A stretch of 58,048 nucleotides of DNA from Alphaproteobacteria bacterium (lineage in GTDB: Bacteria > Pseudomonadota > Alphaproteobacteria > Rhizobiales > Beijerinckiaceae). Position numbers and translations under genes: made by a program. Shown here piece after piece: positions 12,519 to 22,787 of the stretch. Position 1 is the first letter of the stretch; the number at the start of each line of letters is the position of its first letter. The notes below the pieces were generated by a model. It did no database searches, was not told the DNA's origin, and was given only the letters and a program-made list of their open reading frames with translations. Location: contig VGDT01000018.1 of the NCBI GenBank assembly GCA_016869595.1, positions 1 through 58,048 of the forward strand, given 5' to 3'.

Positions 12519-12544
12519 GTGTGAGGCTGCGAGCGGAAAAGCGC

Positions 12545-12597
12545 AGCCCTCGTCCTTCGAGACGCCGCCTTCGGCGGCTCCTCAGGATGAGGACTGC
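12545..12597. repeat. Palindromic repeat family F, copy 4
   Basis: Same consensus as the copies at 8195 and 12770: ccctcgtccttcgagacgcc, then an inner ccttcggcgg turn and ctcctcaggatgaggactgc. It starts 27 bp after the nrdJ stop and may act in transcript ending or 3' protection. Confidence 0.8.
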
Positions 12598-12660
12598 TGA
12601 TGGACGCTTTGAGGTCGCGAATGGTAGGCGCCATTCAATCTCTATCAGCCGCGCAACTAA

Positions 12661-12714
12661 GGCCCCTCATCCTGAGGAGCCTGCGCTAGCAGGCGTCTCG
12701 AAGGGCGAGGGGCC
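12661..12714. repeat. Palindromic repeat family F, copy 5
   Basis: The outer arms ggcccctcatcctgagg and cgaagggcgaggggcc flank an inner cctgcgctagcagg hairpin. It is in opposite orientation to copy 4, so copies 4-6 alternate in direction between nrdJ and the GIY-YIG gene. Confidence 0.8.
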
Positions 12715-12769
12715 GTTGCCGAAAACGAGCAGCTGCGCTCGTCGTCGCGATCCGCAAAATTCTGAAGGC

Positions 12770-12823
12770 GCAGTCCTCGTCCTTCGAGACGCGCCCTGCG
12801 GGCGCTCCTCAGGATGAGGACTG
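12770..12823. repeat. Palindromic repeat family F, copy 6, overlapping a gene end
   Basis: The sequence starts gcagtcctcgtccttcgag and ends aggatgaggactgc. Its right arm overlaps the last codons (K-K-Q-S-S-S) and the stop of the minus-strand GIY-YIG gene, so the repeat supplies that gene's C-terminus. Confidence 0.8.
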
Positions 12824-13120
12824 CTTTTTGATGCGGCGCGCCGCGAGCGCAGGCAGCGCATCGTAATCGCCGCGGATCAATGCCTCTTTTTTCCCACGGC
12901 TCCAGCCCTTGACGCGCCGTTCAGTCGCGATGGCATCCGTCAGCAGTTCAAAATATTCAGACCAGACCAGCTTCCCTGGCCGGCGCCGCATCGTGTAATC
13001 GGCGTTAATCCCGAGATTGTGTTCGCTGACGCGGGTCTCGACCGCTTTTCGCGTCAGACCGGTGTAATAACTGCCATCGGCGCAGAGCAAGATGTAAACG
13101 CTCGCGCCTTCCGCTTGCAT
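12809..13120 (-). CDS. GIY-YIG nuclease superfamily protein
   Basis: Product of 103 residues from the ATG at 13120, which follows an AGGA site and starts 7 bp after the glyS stop. The GIY-YIG domain begins at residue 7: V-Y-I-L-L-C, then Y-Y-T-G-L-T (the GIY...YIG positions), followed by R-V-S-E-H-N-L-G, where the conserved Arg and His-Asn are expected. A later E-x-F-x-x-L-T-D-A-x-x-x-E-R-R-V-K-G-W-S-R-x-K-K-E-A-L-I segment is typical of the small UrbS/UPF0213-like group. The biological substrate of this group is unclear. The last six residues come from a palindromic repeat. Its proximity to glyS suggests co-transcription. Confidence 0.85.
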   Translation of the reverse strand: MQAEGASVYILLCADGSYYTGLTRKAVETRVSEHNLGINADYTMRRRPGKLVWSEYFELLTDAIATERRVKGWSRGKKEALIRGDYDALPALAARRIKKQSSS

Positions 13121-13127
13121 CGCAGTC

Positions 13128-15440
13128 CTACACCGCCGCCTCACCCGCGATCTTGCCGAAATCGGCGACGCCCATCATCACGCGACGCAACTCGGCGAGA
13201 AGGCGCAGGCGATTCAAGCGCAGATCGGCGTTCTCGGCGTTGACCGTCACATCGTCGAAGAAGGCGTCGACCGGCGCGCGAAGCTTTGAGAGCGCGCGCA
13301 TGGCGCCGGCGAAATCTTCCGTCTTGAGATGTTCCGCAGTCTCTTCGCGCGCGCGGGCGATCGCCGCGGCGAGCTTGTGCTCCTGCGGCTCGATGCGCAG
13401 ATTCGGCGCGTGGCGCTGCGCATAGGCGTCCGGCCCGTCCTTCTTCTCCTCGATCTTGAGAATATTGACGGCGCGGCGGAAGCCGGCGAGCAGGTTCTTT
13501 CCGTCGTCGGTTGAGAGGAATTTGTCGAGCGCTTCGACTTTGCGCGTGATCATCAGCAGATCGTCCTGTAGCGGCGGATTCCCTTCTCCCGCTGGCGGGA
13601 GAACGCACTCTGGCGAAGCCGGATCGGATGAGGGCAGAGCCCCAAGCGCCGCATCTATCAGATCGTATCGCGCCCCCTTGTCGCGCAAGTAGACCTTCAG
13701 GCGATCGATGAAAAATTCGAGGAGGTCCGCCGCGACGTCATGCCCGGACTTGGTCCGGGCATCCACGCCCTCGCATCGCCCGTGGATGGCCGGGACAAGC
13801 CCGGCCATGACGCCATGAAGCGGCAACCGCAACTCGTTCTCCAGCACAAGCCGGATCACGCCAAGCGCCGCTCTGCGCAACGCGTAAGGGTCCTTGCTGC
13901 CCGTCGGCTTTTCATCGATCGCCCAGAAACCCACAAGCGTGTCGAGCTTGTCAGCGAGCGCCACAGCGATTGAGACTGGATCGGTCGGGATGCGGTCGTT
14001 CGGCCCCTGCGGCTTGTAATGTTCCTCGATCGCCGCGGCGACGCTGGCGTCTTCGCCTTGCGCGGCTGCGTAATAGCGGCCCATTAGCCCCTGCAGTTCG
14101 GGGAACTCGCCGACCATTTCGGAAACGAGATCGGCCTTGCAGAGCGTCGCCGCGCGTTCAGCGAGAAAGGCGTCGGCGCCGACCAGCGGCGCAAGCTCCT
14201 TTGCGAGCGCCGCGATGCGCTTCACCCGTTCGCCCTGCGTCCCGAGCTTTTCGTGAAAGACGATTGAGTCGAGCTTCGGCAGGCGCTTTTCGAGCCTCAA
14301 CTTGAGATCGGTCTCGTAAAAGAATTTCGCGTCCGACAGCCGCGCGGCGATGACGCGCTCATTGCCGGCGACGACCGTCGCGCCGCCATCGCTCGGCTCG
14401 ATATTCGAGACGAGGATGAAGCGCGGCGCGAGTTCACCTCCCCCTTGAGTGGGGAGGTCGGCAGGCGAAGCCTGCCGGGTGGGGGTGACGCGCGCGTCGC
14501 TTGAGCCCTCACCCCACCCCGGCGCTTCGCGCCGACCCTCCCCCTCAAGGGGAGGGTGGTTGCGCAACACGAAACATTTCTGGTTCACGCGGATCGTCGC
14601 GCGAATGACTTCCGGCGGGATGACAAGAAAACTTTCGTCAAACGACCCCATGAGCGTCACGGGCCATTCGACGAGTCCCGCGACTTCTTCAAGAAGGCCC
14701 GCGTCTTCCACGAGCTCCAAGCCTTGCGCGAAGGCGAGGTCCTTTGCGTCATGCAAAATGATGTCGCGCCGGCGCCCTGCGTCGATGACGACCTTCGAGC
14801 GTTCGAGCGCCAGCGCGTAATCGTCGAAGCGCTTCACCTGGATCGCATAGGGCGCCATGAAGCGATGGCCGTGGGTCACATTGCCGGACGCAATGCCGTC
14901 TACCTCGAAAACCACGACGTCGGGCGTTTCGGTCTCGGGTCCAAAAGTCGCGACGATCGAATGCAGCGGGCGCACCCAGCGTAGCGAGTCCGGGCGCTCC
15001 GACGACGCGCCCCAGCGCATCGATTTCGGCCAGGGAAAGCTTTTGATGATCGCGGGAAGGATCTCGGCAAGCACGTCGATCGTTTCGGCGCCGGCGCGTT
15101 GGATGACCGCGAGATAAAACTCGGCGCCCTTCTTGTCCTTCTCAATCTTCGCCTGATCGAGCGACGCGAGTCCGGCGCTTTTGAGAAAACCGGCGATCGC
15201 CGCCTCCGGCGCGCCGACGCGCGGGCCTTTGCGCTCCTCGCGGAGATCAGGCTGGCGCGAAGGAAGGCCGACCACTTGCAGCGCGAGACGCCGCGGCGTG
15301 GCGTAGGCGGCCGCGCCCTCATAAGAGAGGCCACGCTCGACGAGCGCATTGGTGACGAGACGCTTGAGGTCGTCCGCCGCCTGGCGCTGCATGCGCGCCG
15401 GAATTTCTTCGGAAAAAAGTTCAAGAAGCAGATCGGACAT
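13128..15440 (-). CDS. glyS: Glycyl-tRNA synthetase beta subunit with three repeat-derived insertions
   Basis: The beta subunit of the alpha2beta2 bacterial glycyl-tRNA synthetase. The N-terminus [15 protein letters not shown] is diagnostic. Further family segments are V-N-Q-K-C-F-V-L near residue 280, [26 protein letters not shown], and the C-terminal [10 protein letters not shown] and anticodon-binding regions. At 770 residues it is about 80-100 longer than usual. The excess falls in three low-similarity stretches (about residues 293-335, 543-568 and 603-623). Each coincides with a palindromic DNA repeat and keeps the frame open. glyQ, normally adjacent, is not in this window upstream. If the inserts are tolerated in loops, the enzyme should still work. 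Confidence 0.93.
13571..13632. repeat. Palindromic repeat (cttctcccgctggcgggaga type) inside glyS
   Basis: A ttctcccgctggcgggagaa hairpin is followed by gaagccggatcggatgaggg. It encodes, in frame, the glyS segment [20 protein letters not shown], a stretch with no counterpart in the family as I know it. Confidence 0.7.
13736..13812. repeat. Palindromic repeat (cgtcatgcccggacttggtc type) inside glyS
   Basis: The outer arms cgtcatgcccgg and the complementary ccggccatgacg enclose cttggtccgggcatccacg and cgtggatggccgggacaag, a widespread Rhizobiales intergenic repeat pattern. Here it is read in frame as [13 protein letters not shown]...K-S-G-H-D-V within the synthetase. Confidence 0.8.
14435..14560. 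repeat. Palindromic repeat (acctcccccttgagtgggga type) inside glyS
   Basis: The left block acctcccccttgagtgggga with its ggcaggcgaagcctgcc hairpin, and the right block ending ctcaaggggagggtgg, form a 126 bp imperfect palindrome. 126 is a multiple of three, and it inserts 42 residues between the V-L-R-N and L-A-P-R-F-I-L-V segments of glyS. Confidence 0.8.
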
Positions 15441-15454
15441 TGCGCCTGACTATT

Positions 15455-15497
15455 CCCCTCCCCCCGCTTGCGGCGGGGAGGGGCTAGGGGTGGGGGG
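15455..15497. repeat. GC-rich palindromic repeat, left copy flanking the DUF559 gene
   Basis: The sequence cccctccccccgcttgcggc, then ggggaggggctaggggtgggggg. An almost identical inverted copy lies at 15983-16023 on the other side of the DUF559 gene. Confidence 0.8.
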
Positions 15498-15501
15498 CTC
15501 T

Positions 15502-15617
15502 AGATCACGCTGCATTGGGGCGGAATTGCCCAAATGCAGATAACGTGATCGATTCAAAAAGTTTAGAGCGCGCTTTGCGCGAAAAACCGGATTCCACTTT
15601 TTCGCGAGCCGCGCTCT
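15502..15617 (+). repeat. Dispersed repeat family D, copy 1
   Basis: Contains the arm agatcacgctgcattggggc, a ggcggaattgccc hairpin region, aatgcagataacgtgatcga, then agagcgcgctttgcgcgaaa, aaccggattccactttttcg and a closing gcgctct. The same 115 bp unit occurs in inverse orientation at 26483-26595. Both copies abut the end of a coding region. Confidence 0.8.
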
Positions 15618-15982
15618 TACGTTTGGTAGAGCGCGGCGCAGATCGTGTCCACAACGCTTTCGAGATTGCGCAAAACTTCGTGATTCCAAAATCTCAGCAC
15701 GCGATAGCCGTTTGTTTCAAGAAATCGCGTGCGCTCTTGGTCTCGCAGCCGCCCATCGTCAAAGCCATGTTGCGCGCCGTCTATCTCAACGACGATGCGC
15801 GTGCGATGACATGCGAAATCCGCGAAATAGGGACCGATCGGCGCTTGTCGGCGGAAATGAACGTTTTTGATTTCGAGCTGCCGGAGCTGTGTCCAAAGCT
15901 TGCGTTCTGCTGGCGTCGCTTCTCGTCGCAGCTTACGGGCGCGGGGCGTTCGCGGATCTGAACGACCTGTTTTGTCGTTCAT
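15617..15982 (-). CDS. DUF559 (VSR-like nuclease fold) protein
   Basis: Product of 121 residues starting M-N-D-K-T-G-R at 15982; the longer frame to 16048 reads through a palindromic repeat and is probably not translated. The domain shows A-R-x-L-R-R-E-A-T-P-A-E-R-K-L-W-x-x-L-R near residue 15, then F-R-R-Q-A-P-I-G-P-Y-F-A-D-F-A-C near residue 45 and V-V-E-I-D-G-A-Q-H near residue 65. It ends with R-T-x-F-L-E-T-N-G-Y-R-V-L-R-F-W-N-H-E-V. The FADF / EIDGAQH pair matches the D...ExD/K nuclease core of the VSR and restriction-endonuclease fold. No activity is established for the family. It sits between inverted GC-rich repeats and its ribosome binding site is weak. Confidence 0.87.
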   Translation of the reverse strand: MNDKTGRSDPRTPRARKLRREATPAERKLWTQLRQLEIKNVHFRRQAPIGPYFADFACHRTRIVVEIDGAQHGFDDGRLRDQERTRFLETNGYRVLRFWNHEVLRNLESVVDTICAALYQT

Positions 15983-16023
15983 CCCCCCACCCCTGCCCCT
16001 CCCCGCCGCAAGCGGGGGGAGGG
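15983..16023. repeat. GC-rich palindromic repeat, right copy flanking the DUF559 gene
   Basis: Reverse complement of the 15455-15497 unit with only a 2 bp difference in the middle. It directly abuts the start codon of the DUF559 gene. Confidence 0.8.
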
Positions 16024-16048
16024 AGAATGCAGCGTCCGTTGAAAACAC

Positions 16049-17011
16049 TCAGGCGATTTCCTTGACCGCCGAGTTCGGCGTCTCAAGGAGAAATTTCTCG
16101 ACTTCGAGCGCCGCCATGCAGCCGAGTCCCGCGGCGGTCACCGCCTGACGGTAGACTTCGTCGGCGACGTCGCCGGCGGCATAGACGCCCGGCATGCTCG
16201 TGCGCGTCGTTCCAGGCTCGACGGCGATGTAGCCGGAGGGCTTGATCGTCAACTGGCCACGGAAAAGTTCAGAAGCCGGCGAATGGCCGATGGCGACGAA
16301 GACGCCGTCCGCCGCAAGCGTATGGATCGCGCCAGTCGCGACATTCTTGACGCGCGCGCCGGTGACGCTCAGCGGGCCCTCCTCCCCGACGATTTCTTCG
16401 ATGACGTGATTGAAGAGAATCGAGACGTTTTCTTGCGCGAGCAGACGCTTCACCAATACGCGCTCGCTGCGGAATTCGTCGCGGCGGTGGATGATCGTCA
16501 CATGCGACGCGAGATTGGAAAGATACAGCGCCTCCTCGACCGCGGTGTTGCCGCCGCCGACGACGAGCACTTTCTTGCCGCGGAAGAAAAAGCCGTCGCA
16601 GGTCGCGCAGGCGGAGACGCCGAAGCCTTTGAACTTCTCCTCGCTCGGCAGGCCAAGCCATTTCGCCTTGGCGCCGGTCGCGATGATCAACGAGTCGCAG
16701 GTATATGACGCGCCGGAATCTCCGGTGAGCCTAAACGGCCGCTCGTCGAGATGCGCTTCGACGATATGATCGGAGACGAGCTTTGTCCCGACATGCTCGG
16801 CCTGCAGGCGCATCTGCTCCATGAGCCATGGCCCCTGGATCGGCTCGGCGAAGCCAGGGTAATTCTCGACCTCGGTCGTGATCATGAGCTGGCCGCCCTG
16901 ATCGAAGCCGGCGATGAGCATCGGCTCGAGCAACGCGCGCGCGGCGTAGATCGCCGCCGTATAGCCGGCCGGGCCGGAGCCGATGATGATGACGCGCGCA
17001 TGCTGCGGCAT
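16049..17011 (-). CDS. trxB: Thioredoxin reductase (NADPH)
   Basis: Flavoprotein of 320 residues that passes electrons from NADPH to thioredoxin, and so to the disulfide-dependent ribonucleotide reductase encoded upstream. The FAD-binding motif G-S-G-P-A-G-Y-T-A-A-I-Y-A-A-R lies at residues 11-25. The redox disulfide CATC is near residue 135. The NADPH motif G-G-G-N-T-A-V-E-E-A-L-Y-L lies at about 152-164, with H-R-R-D-E-F-R after it. The C-terminal G-V-Y-A-A-G-D-V-A-D and R-Q-A-V-T-A-A-G-L-G-C-M-A-A complete the FAD site. Length and motifs are canonical. The downstream neighbour is the DUF559 gene, after a repeat. Confidence 0.96.
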   Translation of the reverse strand: MPQHARVIIIGSGPAGYTAAIYAARALLEPMLIAGFDQGGQLMITTEVENYPGFAEPIQGPWLMEQMRLQAEHVGTKLVSDHIVEAHLDERPFRLTGDSGASYTCDSLIIATGAKAKWLGLPSEEKFKGFGVSACATCDGFFFRGKKVLVVGGGNTAVEEALYLSNLASHVTIIHRRDEFRSERVLVKRLLAQENVSILFNHVIEEIVGEEGPLSVTGARVKNVATGAIHTLAADGVFVAIGHSPASELFRGQLTIKPSGYIAVEPGTTRTSMPGVYAAGDVADEVYRQAVTAAGLGCMAALEVEKFLLETPNSAVKEIA

Positions 17012-22335: not shown

Positions 22336-22369
22336 GGGCACTTAACCCTCTCTCCTTGTGGGAGAGGGT

Positions 22370-22409
22370 GACGCGCCGCCCTATTGGAGGACGCGCCGCC
22401 CTATTGGAG
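22370..22409. repeat. Perfect 20-bp tandem duplication before yraN
   Basis: The unit gacgcgccgccctattggag occurs twice back to back at 22370-22389 and 22390-22409. The second copy carries the GGAG used by the yraN start. A ctctctccttgtgggagag hairpin lies just upstream. Confidence 0.9.
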
Positions 22410-22412
22410 AGA

Positions 22413-22787
22413 GTGTTGAGGGACGACGCCCGCCGCGCCGCCTATGTCTACGGCCTACGCGCCGAGACGGCGGCGACGCTGTGGCTACGGGCGCGGCTCT
22501 ATCAAATCCTTGCACGTAATTTTCGGGCGCATGGCGGCGAGATCGACATCGTCGCGCGGCGCGGCCGCACGATCGCCTTCGTCGAAGTGAAAGCGCGCGG
22601 CAATCTCGACGACGCCATCATCGCGATCACGCCGCAAAAACAAAAACGCTTCTCGCAGGCTGCAGGTCGATGGCTCGCGTCGAACCCCTGGGCGATGACG
22701 TATACGCTGCGCGCTGACGCCATTTTCGTCGCGCCGCGCAGGCTGCCGCGTCATCTCGAAAACGCTTTTGAGCTGCGCGTCGGCTGA
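22413..22787 (+). CDS. yraN: YraN family endonuclease-fold protein (UPF0102)
   Basis: Product of about 124 residues of the UPF0102 family. Core motifs of the restriction-endonuclease-like fold are [15 protein letters not shown] near residue 45 (with the conserved E-I-D) and I-A-F-V-E-V-K-A-R near residue 63 (with E-V-K). These are followed by [10 protein letters not shown]. Its role is unclear, perhaps in DNA processing. The start is uncertain. GTG at 22413 and TTG at 22416 both lie just after GGAGAGA; frames further upstream read a repeat. It follows rsmI by 77 bp. Confidence 0.9.

Follow-up and report, generated by a model that had tools for sequence, protein, structure and literature searches.

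In-frame palindromic repeats in glyS of a Beijerinckiaceae genome and a DUF559 nuclease gene as candidate mobiliser

Palindromic elements of Rickettsia have reportedly been described by Ogata and others. Two of the Rickettsia families, RPE-4 and RPE-6, have been assigned to the CGTC REP superfamily, whose repeats apparently have no dedicated transposase (PMC3733652). According to that study, genes that contain REPs include those for tRNA synthetases, DNA polymerase I and DNA ligase as well as uvrA, and in recB two Xanthomonas species have different REPs at nearly the same place; the words glyS, glycyl, Beijerinck, DUF559 and Vsr do not occur in its main text (PMC3733652). In the part of the literature on DUF559 that we consulted, VsrA of Caulobacter, which belongs to DUF559, is interpreted as an endonuclease of mismatch repair (PMC12907096). 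A literature search, mostly of papers outside subscription, gave two papers in which DUF559 occurs together with palindromic repeats as terms, both on other subjects judging by title and abstract.

Palindromic repeats in the glyS reading frame

The window is the whole stretch of DNA that was analysed, 58,048 nucleotides from a Beijerinckiaceae genome. It contains glyS and three inserts within this gene, named here sites A, B and C.

13128-15440, minus strand: glyS, which encodes the beta subunit of glycyl-tRNA synthetase (770 aa) and contains the three inserts
13582-13634, plus strand: site C, where a single arm of a two-hairpin element (hairpin 1, hairpin 2 and a GGATGAGGG tail) lies in frame in glyS, from covariance model R1 and own-genome copies
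13736-13812, unstranded: site B insert, head-to-head dimer of a CGTC-type REP, in frame in glyS, from CGTC features, DNA fold and genome copies
14435-14558, unstranded: site A, where the two-hairpin element forms an inverted dimer within the reading frame, from the R1 model and DNA fold
14436-14485, plus strand, and 14511-14556, minus strand: the two arms of the site A dimer

Profile searches matched glyS to PF02092 (621 bits) and TIGR00211 (751 bits), and its frame stays open throughout all three insert stretches. Each stretch is repeated elsewhere in the genome. In blastn against the own genome (E<=0.01, self included), 13571-13632 (site C) had 15 matches, 13736-13812 (site B) at least 67 and 14435-14560 (site A) at least 13, the last two counts coming from 40 scored candidates each, out of 63 and 51 respectively at first look. 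None of 200 shuffles was as stable as the DNA fold of 13736-13812 (z -5.48) or of 14435-14560 (z -7.46); 13571-13632 folded no better than its shuffles (z -1.14; 25/200 as stable).

The inserts are of two superfamilies, a CGTC-type REP at site B and a two-hairpin element at sites A and C. CGTC REPs are characterised by a CGTC end, a stem of 8-9 bp that opens with A and T, a loop of 4-5 nt and a CCA tail. The site B repeat agrees with this description, both of its arms having CGTC, 9/9 stem pairs starting AT, a 5-nt loop and CCA. The genome holds 22 CGTC..GACG dimers, the window's own counted, and they are mostly intergenic. The two-hairpin element consists of a hairpin, a second hairpin and a GGRTGAGGG tail; it is found singly, doubled into inverted dimers, or with a DUF559 gene between two arms (arm-DUF559-arm). 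It has no CGTC tag: 23 of the 24 aligned arms start with CC[CT]TCTCCC and one with ACCTCCCCC. Double changes were found at 8 of its 17 predicted pairs, chiefly in hairpin 2. The site C arm, itself among the 24 rows of the R1 model, scores 57.2 bits with it (E 1.7e-11). An Rfam scan of 12900-16200 gave one sub-threshold match (RF03037, 20.9 bits vs gathering 61.1).

The first-pass annotation of this DNA had claimed that the glyS frame crosses palindromic repeats of three distinct types, each in a loop between conserved segments, which make the product 80-100 residues longer than usual. The crossing is borne out by the open frame and the genomic copies, and all three sites are indeed GlyS loops separating conserved segments. 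There are not three types, as 13582-13634 and 14435-14558 share one superfamily. The gain in length was overstated: GlyS has 770 aa here vs a median of 728 in the family (103 genomes, 27 of them with at least 770) and 703-725 aa in the four congeners drawn. Loop A (49 aa vs 10-11 in the four congeners) is the sole clean net gain. Loop B has 34 aa vs 35 in three congeners and 10 in the fourth, and loop C exceeds the congeners by 7-13 aa. Because these two loops are little or no longer than those of the congeners, sites B and C look like replacement or expansion, not simple addition. In the AlphaFold model, pLDDT is below 50 at residues 305-326, 611-613 and 615-619 of sites A and C, and at site B, modelled as helix plus loop, block means are 70-89.

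Distribution in the genome and in relatives

A survey with 52 stretches, of which L039, L040, L044, L045, L047 and L048 gave no place because they had no match at the stricter cut-off, yielded 55 merged repeat places in the own genome. Fifty-one are intergenic, and three lie inside a gene, all in glyS. The intergenic calls depend on a custom gene finder, by which the coding share is 74% of the own-genome DNA (83% and 79% in two further surveys); some repeat loci overlap, L166, L170 and L176 being a single place. The repeat model had at least 98 matches in the own genome, with up to 150 candidates scored per genome. Since 51 of the 55 places are intergenic, we infer that insertion occurs generally, with copies in coding DNA persisting solely in tolerant loops. 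The repeats are not built to be open in every frame: open frames per six were fewer than in shuffles, both for CGTC repeats (2.62 in 26 copies; shuffles 3.62) and for two-hairpin elements (2.60 in 5 copies; shuffles 3.39). No target-site duplication was detected, as the mean abutting repeat was 0.64 nt at 22 CGTC dimers (control 0.54) and 3.74 nt at 23 two-hairpin dimers (control 3.59).

For the comparison of GlyS, 119 genomes were searched, 116 matched, 106 were fetched and 103 were aligned after three fragments were dropped. Nine of these 103 family genomes have an insertion in loop A, made of different repeats, and six of the nine have a hairpin with z<=-3. The insertions require 8 Fitch parsimony changes vs a shuffled mean of 8.77; genomes whose loop A escaped the pattern were scored as insertion-less in this count, and the alignment column count agrees. 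A loop A insertion is present in Rhizobium and Tianweitania too. In seven genomes, among them the own one, a total of ten GlyS loops match repeat copies of the own genome, at 74-100% identity. The four congeners lack the site A insert, a clearer picture than at sites B and C. L291, with 86% in tblastn the nearest relative identified, has the middle, site B repeat in common with the window, a different palindrome at site A and a different half element at site C. Between the two, the site B stretch has 7 amino-acid vs 2 silent changes, and the remaining gene 43 vs 146. Thus, as to whether relatives share the inserts with conservation of the protein, the middle repeat is shared, but changes there run 7:2 and the other two loops differ.

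These comparisons support an insertion that is recurrent and lineage-specific. The earlier suggestion of an active process placing repeats in coding DNA finds no support in the location data, with 51 of 55 places intergenic. GlyS as the only target is true for the own genome's 55 places and false in relatives, where the element lies inside another reading frame at 7 further loci among 30; in-frame copies occur in DNA polymerase I, UvrA-type and proline dehydrogenase genes. The neighbouring gene nrdJ served as control. Its full-length matches, judged by eye, span 3.63-3.77 kb vs 3.67 kb for the query. Four split matches were opened (G048, G039, G095, G038): in G048 an inverted two-hairpin palindrome (z -2.35) makes up a 32-aa insert, G039 has two short inserts that are no such palindrome, and G095 has a 371-aa insert resembling an intein. 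Insertion was therefore counted at least once in 117 genomes with an nrdJ match vs 9/103 for GlyS loop A.

A DUF559 gene between inverted arms

Beside glyS, the window contains a nuclease gene and two further arms.

15617-16048, minus strand: DUF559 (PF04480, E 2.6e-38) Vsr-like endonuclease gene, candidate mobiliser
15457-15496, plus strand: two-hairpin-type arm between glyS and the DUF559 gene (R1 24.8 bits, E 0.00043)
15984-16022, minus strand: two-hairpin-type arm on the trxB side, inverted relative to 15457-15496 (R1 24.1 bits, E 0.00063)

The inverted-repeat score of this locus (L341) is 39.0, and the first codons of the gene as called traverse the outer arm. Its product retains 20/20 near-invariant DUF559 residues. 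The DUF559 profile matched solely two solved structures at E<0.01, PDB 3hrl (E 1.4e-35), an endonuclease-like protein, and 3r3p (E 0.0013), a 'mobile intron protein' which we take to be of the EDxHD or Vsr-type homing endonucleases. In the region upstream of glyS, arm-DUF559-arm is found in the window and G017, a DUF559-less inverted dimer in L291, G089 and G105, and neither of them in the stretch inspected in G114 and G057. DUF559-bearing, DUF559-less and empty states therefore exist among relatives, without exact junctions.

In the family, 24 of 29 DUF559 loci have flanking inverted repeats scoring at least 20.5, and all 28 nrdJ flank pairs score 10.5 or less. The five loci without such a repeat are L332, L346, L352, L347 and L357; L332, in the own genome, abuts a repeat match on one side only, L347 is clipped at a contig end and L357 carries a 20.9-bit match. 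Model rows were found at 28/30 DUF559 loci vs 6/30 nrdJ loci. Class-wide, 18 of 30 DUF559 loci score at least 16 vs 2 of 113 control windows from the same loci, and 12 score below 16. Clear arms occur at 3 of 7 named plasmid DUF559 loci (7 of 43 records sampled), and arm-DUF559-arm at the single Deinococcus locus tested.

Furthermore, arms and DUF559 proteins covary (Mantel r=0.395, p=0.0002) over 38 units, all of which already had arms at a score of at least 18. The element is present in 20/20 chosen DUF559-positive genomes vs 5/18 DUF559-negative ones, the samples being 20 of 93 positives, all with strong matches, and 18 of 20 listed negatives (196 negative in total); 13/18 negatives are without it. 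Among genomes of at least 2.5 Mb the figures are 18/18 vs 3/11, with kinship and genome size partly controlled. The numbers of DUF559 genes and elements in eight family genomes correlate weakly (Spearman 0.49, p=0.22). As for the glyS inserts (n=14), 7 match the flank of a DUF559 unit in the same genome, 5 of them better than the flank of any other genome, and 5 further inserts have some flank match but none in their own genome. The matches include L002/L330 (94% over 54 nt) and L007/L351 (91% over 69 nt). The window's site A insert matches its own DUF559 flanks over 23 nt only (96%), and another genome's flank matches it better. The site B CGTC repeat has no DUF559 link in these data.

Mobilisation and comparison with known systems

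We consider it probable that the repeats spread as parasitic DNA, that GlyS loops tolerate in-frame copies and that DUF559 is the most likely mobiliser of the two-hairpin element. Both kinds of palindrome, CGTC REP dimers and two-hairpin elements, would spread as parasitic non-coding DNA and land mostly between genes. Three loops of GlyS may tolerate extra residues, and therefore insertions that keep the frame would survive there as neutral inserts, while new ones would keep reaching the same loops. Arm-DUF559-arm would be the parent mobile unit, and the Vsr-like nuclease would cut DNA near the arms, after which repair copying would move the unit. Inverted dimers, including the two-hairpin inserts in glyS, would then be nuclease-less derivatives, by analogy with MITEs and transposons. 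We regard it as evenly balanced whether arm-DUF559-arm, a Vsr-like nuclease gene between two-hairpin inverted arms, represents a kind of bacterial mobile element not described before, spread through Alphaproteobacteria and present at the one Deinococcus locus examined, whose nuclease-less derivatives form large palindromic families that repeatedly enter essential genes such as glyS.

A possible but less probable explanation is homing, in which the palindromes spread by another route and a selfish DUF559 nuclease cuts the centre of an inverted dimer and is copied in by repair. DUF559 sits exactly where the dimer spacer is, its solved relatives are just the two named above, and upstream of glyS the dimer of relatives occurs with or without DUF559. 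Among 27 inverted neighbouring pairs (75 arms picked from 132 rows) the spacer is at most 78 nt in 25; the two wide spacers (305 and 391 nt) are occupied by a CGTC dimer and by what visual inspection shows as another palindrome, which makes spacers landing sites in their own right. Homing leaves the spread of the dimers unexplained, and the lack of the element in 13 of 18 DUF559-negative genomes is what is expected if the element needs DUF559.

It is improbable that the elements are bidirectional terminators or insulators between which a horizontally moving repair or defence gene was kept by chance. Such roles would suit GC-rich, mostly intergenic hairpins, and the mismatch-repair role proposed for the Caulobacter protein (PMC12907096, as far as consulted) would suit such a gene, but in-frame copies in glyS, DNA polymerase I, UvrA-type and proline dehydrogenase genes are not predicted, nor are the arm-protein covariation and the absence of the element from most DUF559-negative genomes searched. 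Slippage or de novo GC-rich expansion of the GlyS loops, with palindromes as a compositional coincidence, is very improbable as a whole and unlikely for sites A and B: loop B does range from 17 to 176 aa across the 83 genomes parsed with few loops matching repeats, and in the window loops B and C exceed those of congeners by little, the site C arm folding at z -1.14, but dispersed repeats are 74-100% identical to the inserts, the folds reach z -7.5 at site A and -5.5 at site B, and site C of L004 matches an intergenic copy in another genus at 97% over 58 nt. Mobilisation by a RAYT (Y1 transposase), as with GTAG REPs, was rejected and has hardly any probability left, since, for all the REP-like anatomy and two weak Y1_Tnp matches (36 and 31 bits) in insert-bearing G105, Y1_Tnp matched in 3 of 12 genomes searched and PF01797 had no match in the own genome (G000, draft, 152 contigs) or in six insert-bearing genomes (G036, G077, G074, G014, G010, G062).

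With DUF559 as the probable mobiliser, this protein family gains a concrete hypothesis, and the candidate gene sits between the arms. For the question of how many palindromic repeats move or enter genes, another large class of repeats would thereby have a mobiliser that can be put to the test. GlyS is a natural experiment, an essential enzyme in which three loops are struck by different repeats across the order, and could record repeat invasion.

Compared with the CGTC REP superfamily in the main text of Di Nocera, De Gregorio and Rocco 2013 (PMC3733652), 13736-13812 has the same features, a mostly intergenic distribution and no dedicated transposase, whereas the two-hairpin element is without the CGTC tag. 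The likeness to coding palindromes of Rickettsia, proposed at first for a Rhizobiales relative, is supported by the CGTC REP features of site B. As far as PMC2229807 and PMC3733652 describe them, RPEs and Wolbachia palindromes are likewise in-frame repeats inside conserved genes, tolerated by the protein; here, by contrast, the host is of the Beijerinckiaceae, the loops of one gene are hit recurrently across genera and one family has a candidate nuclease. RAYT/REP and TIRYT systems, as outlined in PMC3733652, also have short palindromes that flank a small DNA-processing gene and are dispersed without it too, but the nuclease here is PD-(D/E)XK, a Vsr-like DUF559 and not a Y1 tyrosine transposase, and its arms are inverted repeats of two hairpins each. 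DDE transposons likewise give rise to gene-less inverted-repeat derivatives of a coding unit, the MITEs, but here no target-site duplication was detected and the encoded protein is not a DDE transposase. EDxHD/Vsr-type homing endonucleases (PDB 3r3p) have distant sequence similarity to the nuclease (E 0.0013), but DUF559 lies between palindromic arms in intergenic DNA. In summary, in-frame REPs in glyS are a variant of a published kind (Di Nocera 2013; Rickettsia RPEs), and the new part is the DUF559 nuclease gene bracketed by inverted arms.

Palindromic repeats in the glyS reading frame

The glyS gene was analyzed on contig 18 of a draft genome of 3.28 Mb in 152 contigs. The first-pass annotation placed palindromic repeats of three distinct types in its frame. 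Three stretches are indeed repeats, each with copies in its own genome (15 matches for site C, 67 for site B and 13 for site A at E<=0.01, the query itself counted). The count of types has to be lowered; the shared arm anatomy of 13582-13634 and 14435-14558 puts these two in one superfamily.

13128-15440, minus strand: glyS, 770 aa, strong Pfam and NCBIfam matches
14435-14558: site A repeat, inverted dimer of two arms of the two-hairpin element (arm model)
13736-13812: site B repeat, CGTC-type head-to-head dimer
13582-13634: site C repeat, single arm of the two-hairpin element (arm model)

Each arm of 13736-13812 consists of CGTC, a 9-bp stem starting with AT (9/9 pairs), a 5-nt loop and CCA, which fits the CGTC REP description in section 6 of PMC3733652. 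Alignment of 24 own-genome arms gave the two-hairpin consensus: hairpin 1 (CCYTCTCCC..GGGAGARGG), a variable second hairpin and a GGRTGAGGG tail. RNAalifold revealed 17 pairs in these arms, 8 of which are changed on both sides among some copies, and five of the 8 are in the second hairpin. Fold z was -5.48 for the site B dimer and -7.46 for the site A dimer, and only -1.14 for the single arm at site C.

Sharing of the inserts with relatives, with conservation as protein, was found only in part: the CGTC dimer at site B is common to the window and L291 (MAG VGEB01000047.1), the nearest named relative, but at the other two sites L291 carries something else: another palindrome at A, another half element at C. 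The loop A palindrome of L291 reads CGGCAGTGGGCAGTCG...CGACTGCCGACTGCCG. Around the shared repeat (residues 541-573), 7 codon differences change the amino acid and 2 are silent, versus 43 and 146 in the remaining glyS (Fisher p=0.0011). Both stems are identical; four of the 7 changes fall in the spacer, one in the loop of an arm and two just outside, where both silent differences also lie. The site B repeat is thus not conserved as protein.

Recurrence in GlyS loops and in other genes

Among 119 family genomes searched, 116 had a match; 106 glyS genes were taken and 103 were aligned. Pattern parsing of 100 genomes found loop A, which follows NQKCFV, to be no longer than 15 aa in 91 and 27-57 aa long in nine; alignment columns also gave a long loop in 9/103. 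On the GlyS tree, the nine long loops need 8 changes, close to the shuffled-label mean of 8.77, and thus they look independent in origin. Six of them contain hairpins at z<=-3 relative to other windows in the gene concerned; local hairpins occur in those of glyS loci L004 (z -1.5) and L006 (z -1.8), and no hairpin was found in the long loop A of L008. Ten GlyS loops from 7 genomes, our own among them, match own-genome repeat copies (E<1e-3); these include CGTC repeats at loop B in three genera, in the same reading frame.

Of 80 named genomes, 5 have a long loop A and 3 a long loop C. Long hairpins form in loop A of Rhizobium rhizogenes, R. tropici and Tianweitania populi and in loop C of Mesorhizobium sp. 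SOD10 (-73.6 to -105.2 kcal/mol, raw folding energies). Loop A of both Rhizobium species matches an own-genome repeat copy (E about 6e-11). At loop B, a CGTC-type match was obtained in Rhodoplanes serenus (E 6.8e-10); the long loop A of Fulvimarina had no match among own-genome repeat copies.

Most copies lie between genes. In 52 stretches around own-genome matches, with genes called by a small codon-usage finder, 55 merged places comprised 51 intergenic, one overlapping a gene start and three within a gene, all in glyS. The arm model matched 98 times in the own genome, 71, 30, 7 and 5 times in four congeners, 74 times in G036 (a compared genome), and 122 and at least 150 times in two genomes of another genus; the 30 loci drawn from this search, some overlapping, were all intergenic. 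Of 30 loci found in other relatives with the G036 glyS insert as query, 17 were intergenic, 5 lay at gene ends (three being a single place) and 8 fell within reading frames, among them glyS of G036. By Pfam, the other hosts are DNA polymerase I, proline dehydrogenase/aldehyde dehydrogenase, epoxyqueuosine reductase, ATP-dependent DNA ligase, a molybdopterin-binding dehydrogenase, a protein with UvrA interaction and DNA-binding domains, and one with a nitrogenase-type oxidoreductase domain, in which the element is close to the frame start. Furthermore, nrdJ of G048 (L396, contig 198, 23700-27700) carries a 32-aa in-frame insert that is an inverted two-hairpin palindrome. The nrdJ of G095 (L399, contig 29, 11800-16900) has a 371-aa in-frame insert, whose start, CVTGDTLVATADGLERI, is as would be expected of an intein.

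Among 75 arms picked from arm-model rows, 25 of 27 inverted pairs are 0-78 nt apart. Nested palindromes occupy the other two, wider spacers:

L076:1937-2317: CGTC dimer in the spacer of a two-hairpin dimer
L300:669-1157: by eye, another palindrome in a second two-hairpin dimer

A further weak arm-model match lies outside the glyS region (22346-22422, plus strand, 22.1 bits, E 0.0018). At 12521-12861, ORFs on both strands with PHPEEPALAGVSKGEG/PHPEERPQGASRR-type peptides resemble a palindromic repeat of yet another type, and a peptide like these is present at site A of L004 (G105), within the insert.

The DUF559 gene and its inverted arms

15457-15496, plus strand: arm-model match, one side of the DUF559 gene
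15617-16048: DUF559 gene between trxB and glyS (PF04480, E 2.6e-38)
15984-16022, minus strand: arm-model match, other side

Because this inverted pair brackets the nuclease gene, DUF559 loci were searched and their flanks compared. There were 31 matches, in 11 of 12 genomes. Flank-versus-flank inverted repeats scored 20.5-92.5 at 24/29 loci and 8-10.5 at the remaining 5, versus 7-10.5 at 28 control nrdJ loci. Arm-model rows were obtained at 28/30 DUF559 and 6/30 nrdJ loci, one of the latter being the window's glyS. Class-wide (30 loci, 30 genomes), 18 scored >=16, versus 2/113 control windows within the same loci, and 23 exceeded the best of 50 shuffles. Seven named plasmid loci included clear arms in Sinorhizobium meliloti, Deinococcus proteolyticus and Sphingomonas parapaucimobilis, a borderline score in Picosynechococcus, and no clear arms in Shinella, Azospirillum and Methylobacterium aquaticum. 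Arm similarity tracks DUF559 protein similarity across 38 units (Mantel r=0.395, p=0.0002). The arm model, run on 38 genomes, detected the element in 20/20 DUF559-positive and 5/18 DUF559-negative ones. The window's protein has 20/20 near-invariant residues; the family profile matches PDB 3hrl at E 1.4e-35 and has a weak match to the mobile intron protein 3r3p (E 0.0013).

Directly downstream of glyS, a 111-aa ORF (12809-13144, minus strand) contains VYILLCADGSYYTGLT and, by eye, presumably resembles a GIY-YIG endonuclease; with the DUF559 gene on its other side, glyS may therefore lie between two small nuclease genes.

Three states were observed upstream of glyS. The window and G017 have arm-DUF559-arm; L291, G089 and G105 have an inverted dimer that lacks DUF559; G114 and G057 showed neither over the stretch examined. 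A small gene named by eye as CDGSH-type precedes glyS in G114, G017, G089, G057 and G105; it is absent there in the window and L291, with repeats in place. Sites A and C of seven genomes provided 14 glyS inserts, and 12 of these match a DUF559-unit flank. For seven, a flank of their own genome is matched, which in five cases fits better than the flanks of all other genomes; the remaining 5 match foreign flanks only. The five cases are in G077 (94%/54 nt), G074 (91%/69 and 78%/97), G014 (92%/52 nt) and G036 (89%/47). The window's site A insert matches its own flank at 96% over just 23 nt, and a foreign flank matches better.

Proposed mechanism and relation to known repeats

We propose that DUF559 would cut at or near palindromic arms. 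This step draws on Caulobacter VsrA, a DUF559 relative, which the part of PMC12907096 consulted reports to account for an SOS response in a methylase mutant. The break would be repaired by copying in arm-flanked DNA, and gene-less copies would build up. Coding insertions would mostly be lost, and frame-keeping ones in a tolerant loop would persist. DUF559 might instead home into pre-existing dimers, a reading that we place somewhat behind; that the nuclease moves the element is somewhat ahead. The CGTC repeats, described without a transposase in the passages of PMC3733652 consulted, may use a separate route of spread.

The literature search found no paper joining DUF559 to such repeats, nor did the main text of PMC3733652 mention DUF559; this link could be categorically new. 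The glyS insertion itself belongs to a known phenomenon, since in-frame palindromic repeats have been described in Rickettsia and Wolbachia (PMC2229807, in part) and REPs inside uvrA, DNA polymerase I, DNA ligase and tRNA synthetase genes (PMC3733652, in part). As in those accounts, palindromes lie within genes; to our reading, the gene and the bacterial family are new, and the same loops are hit repeatedly.
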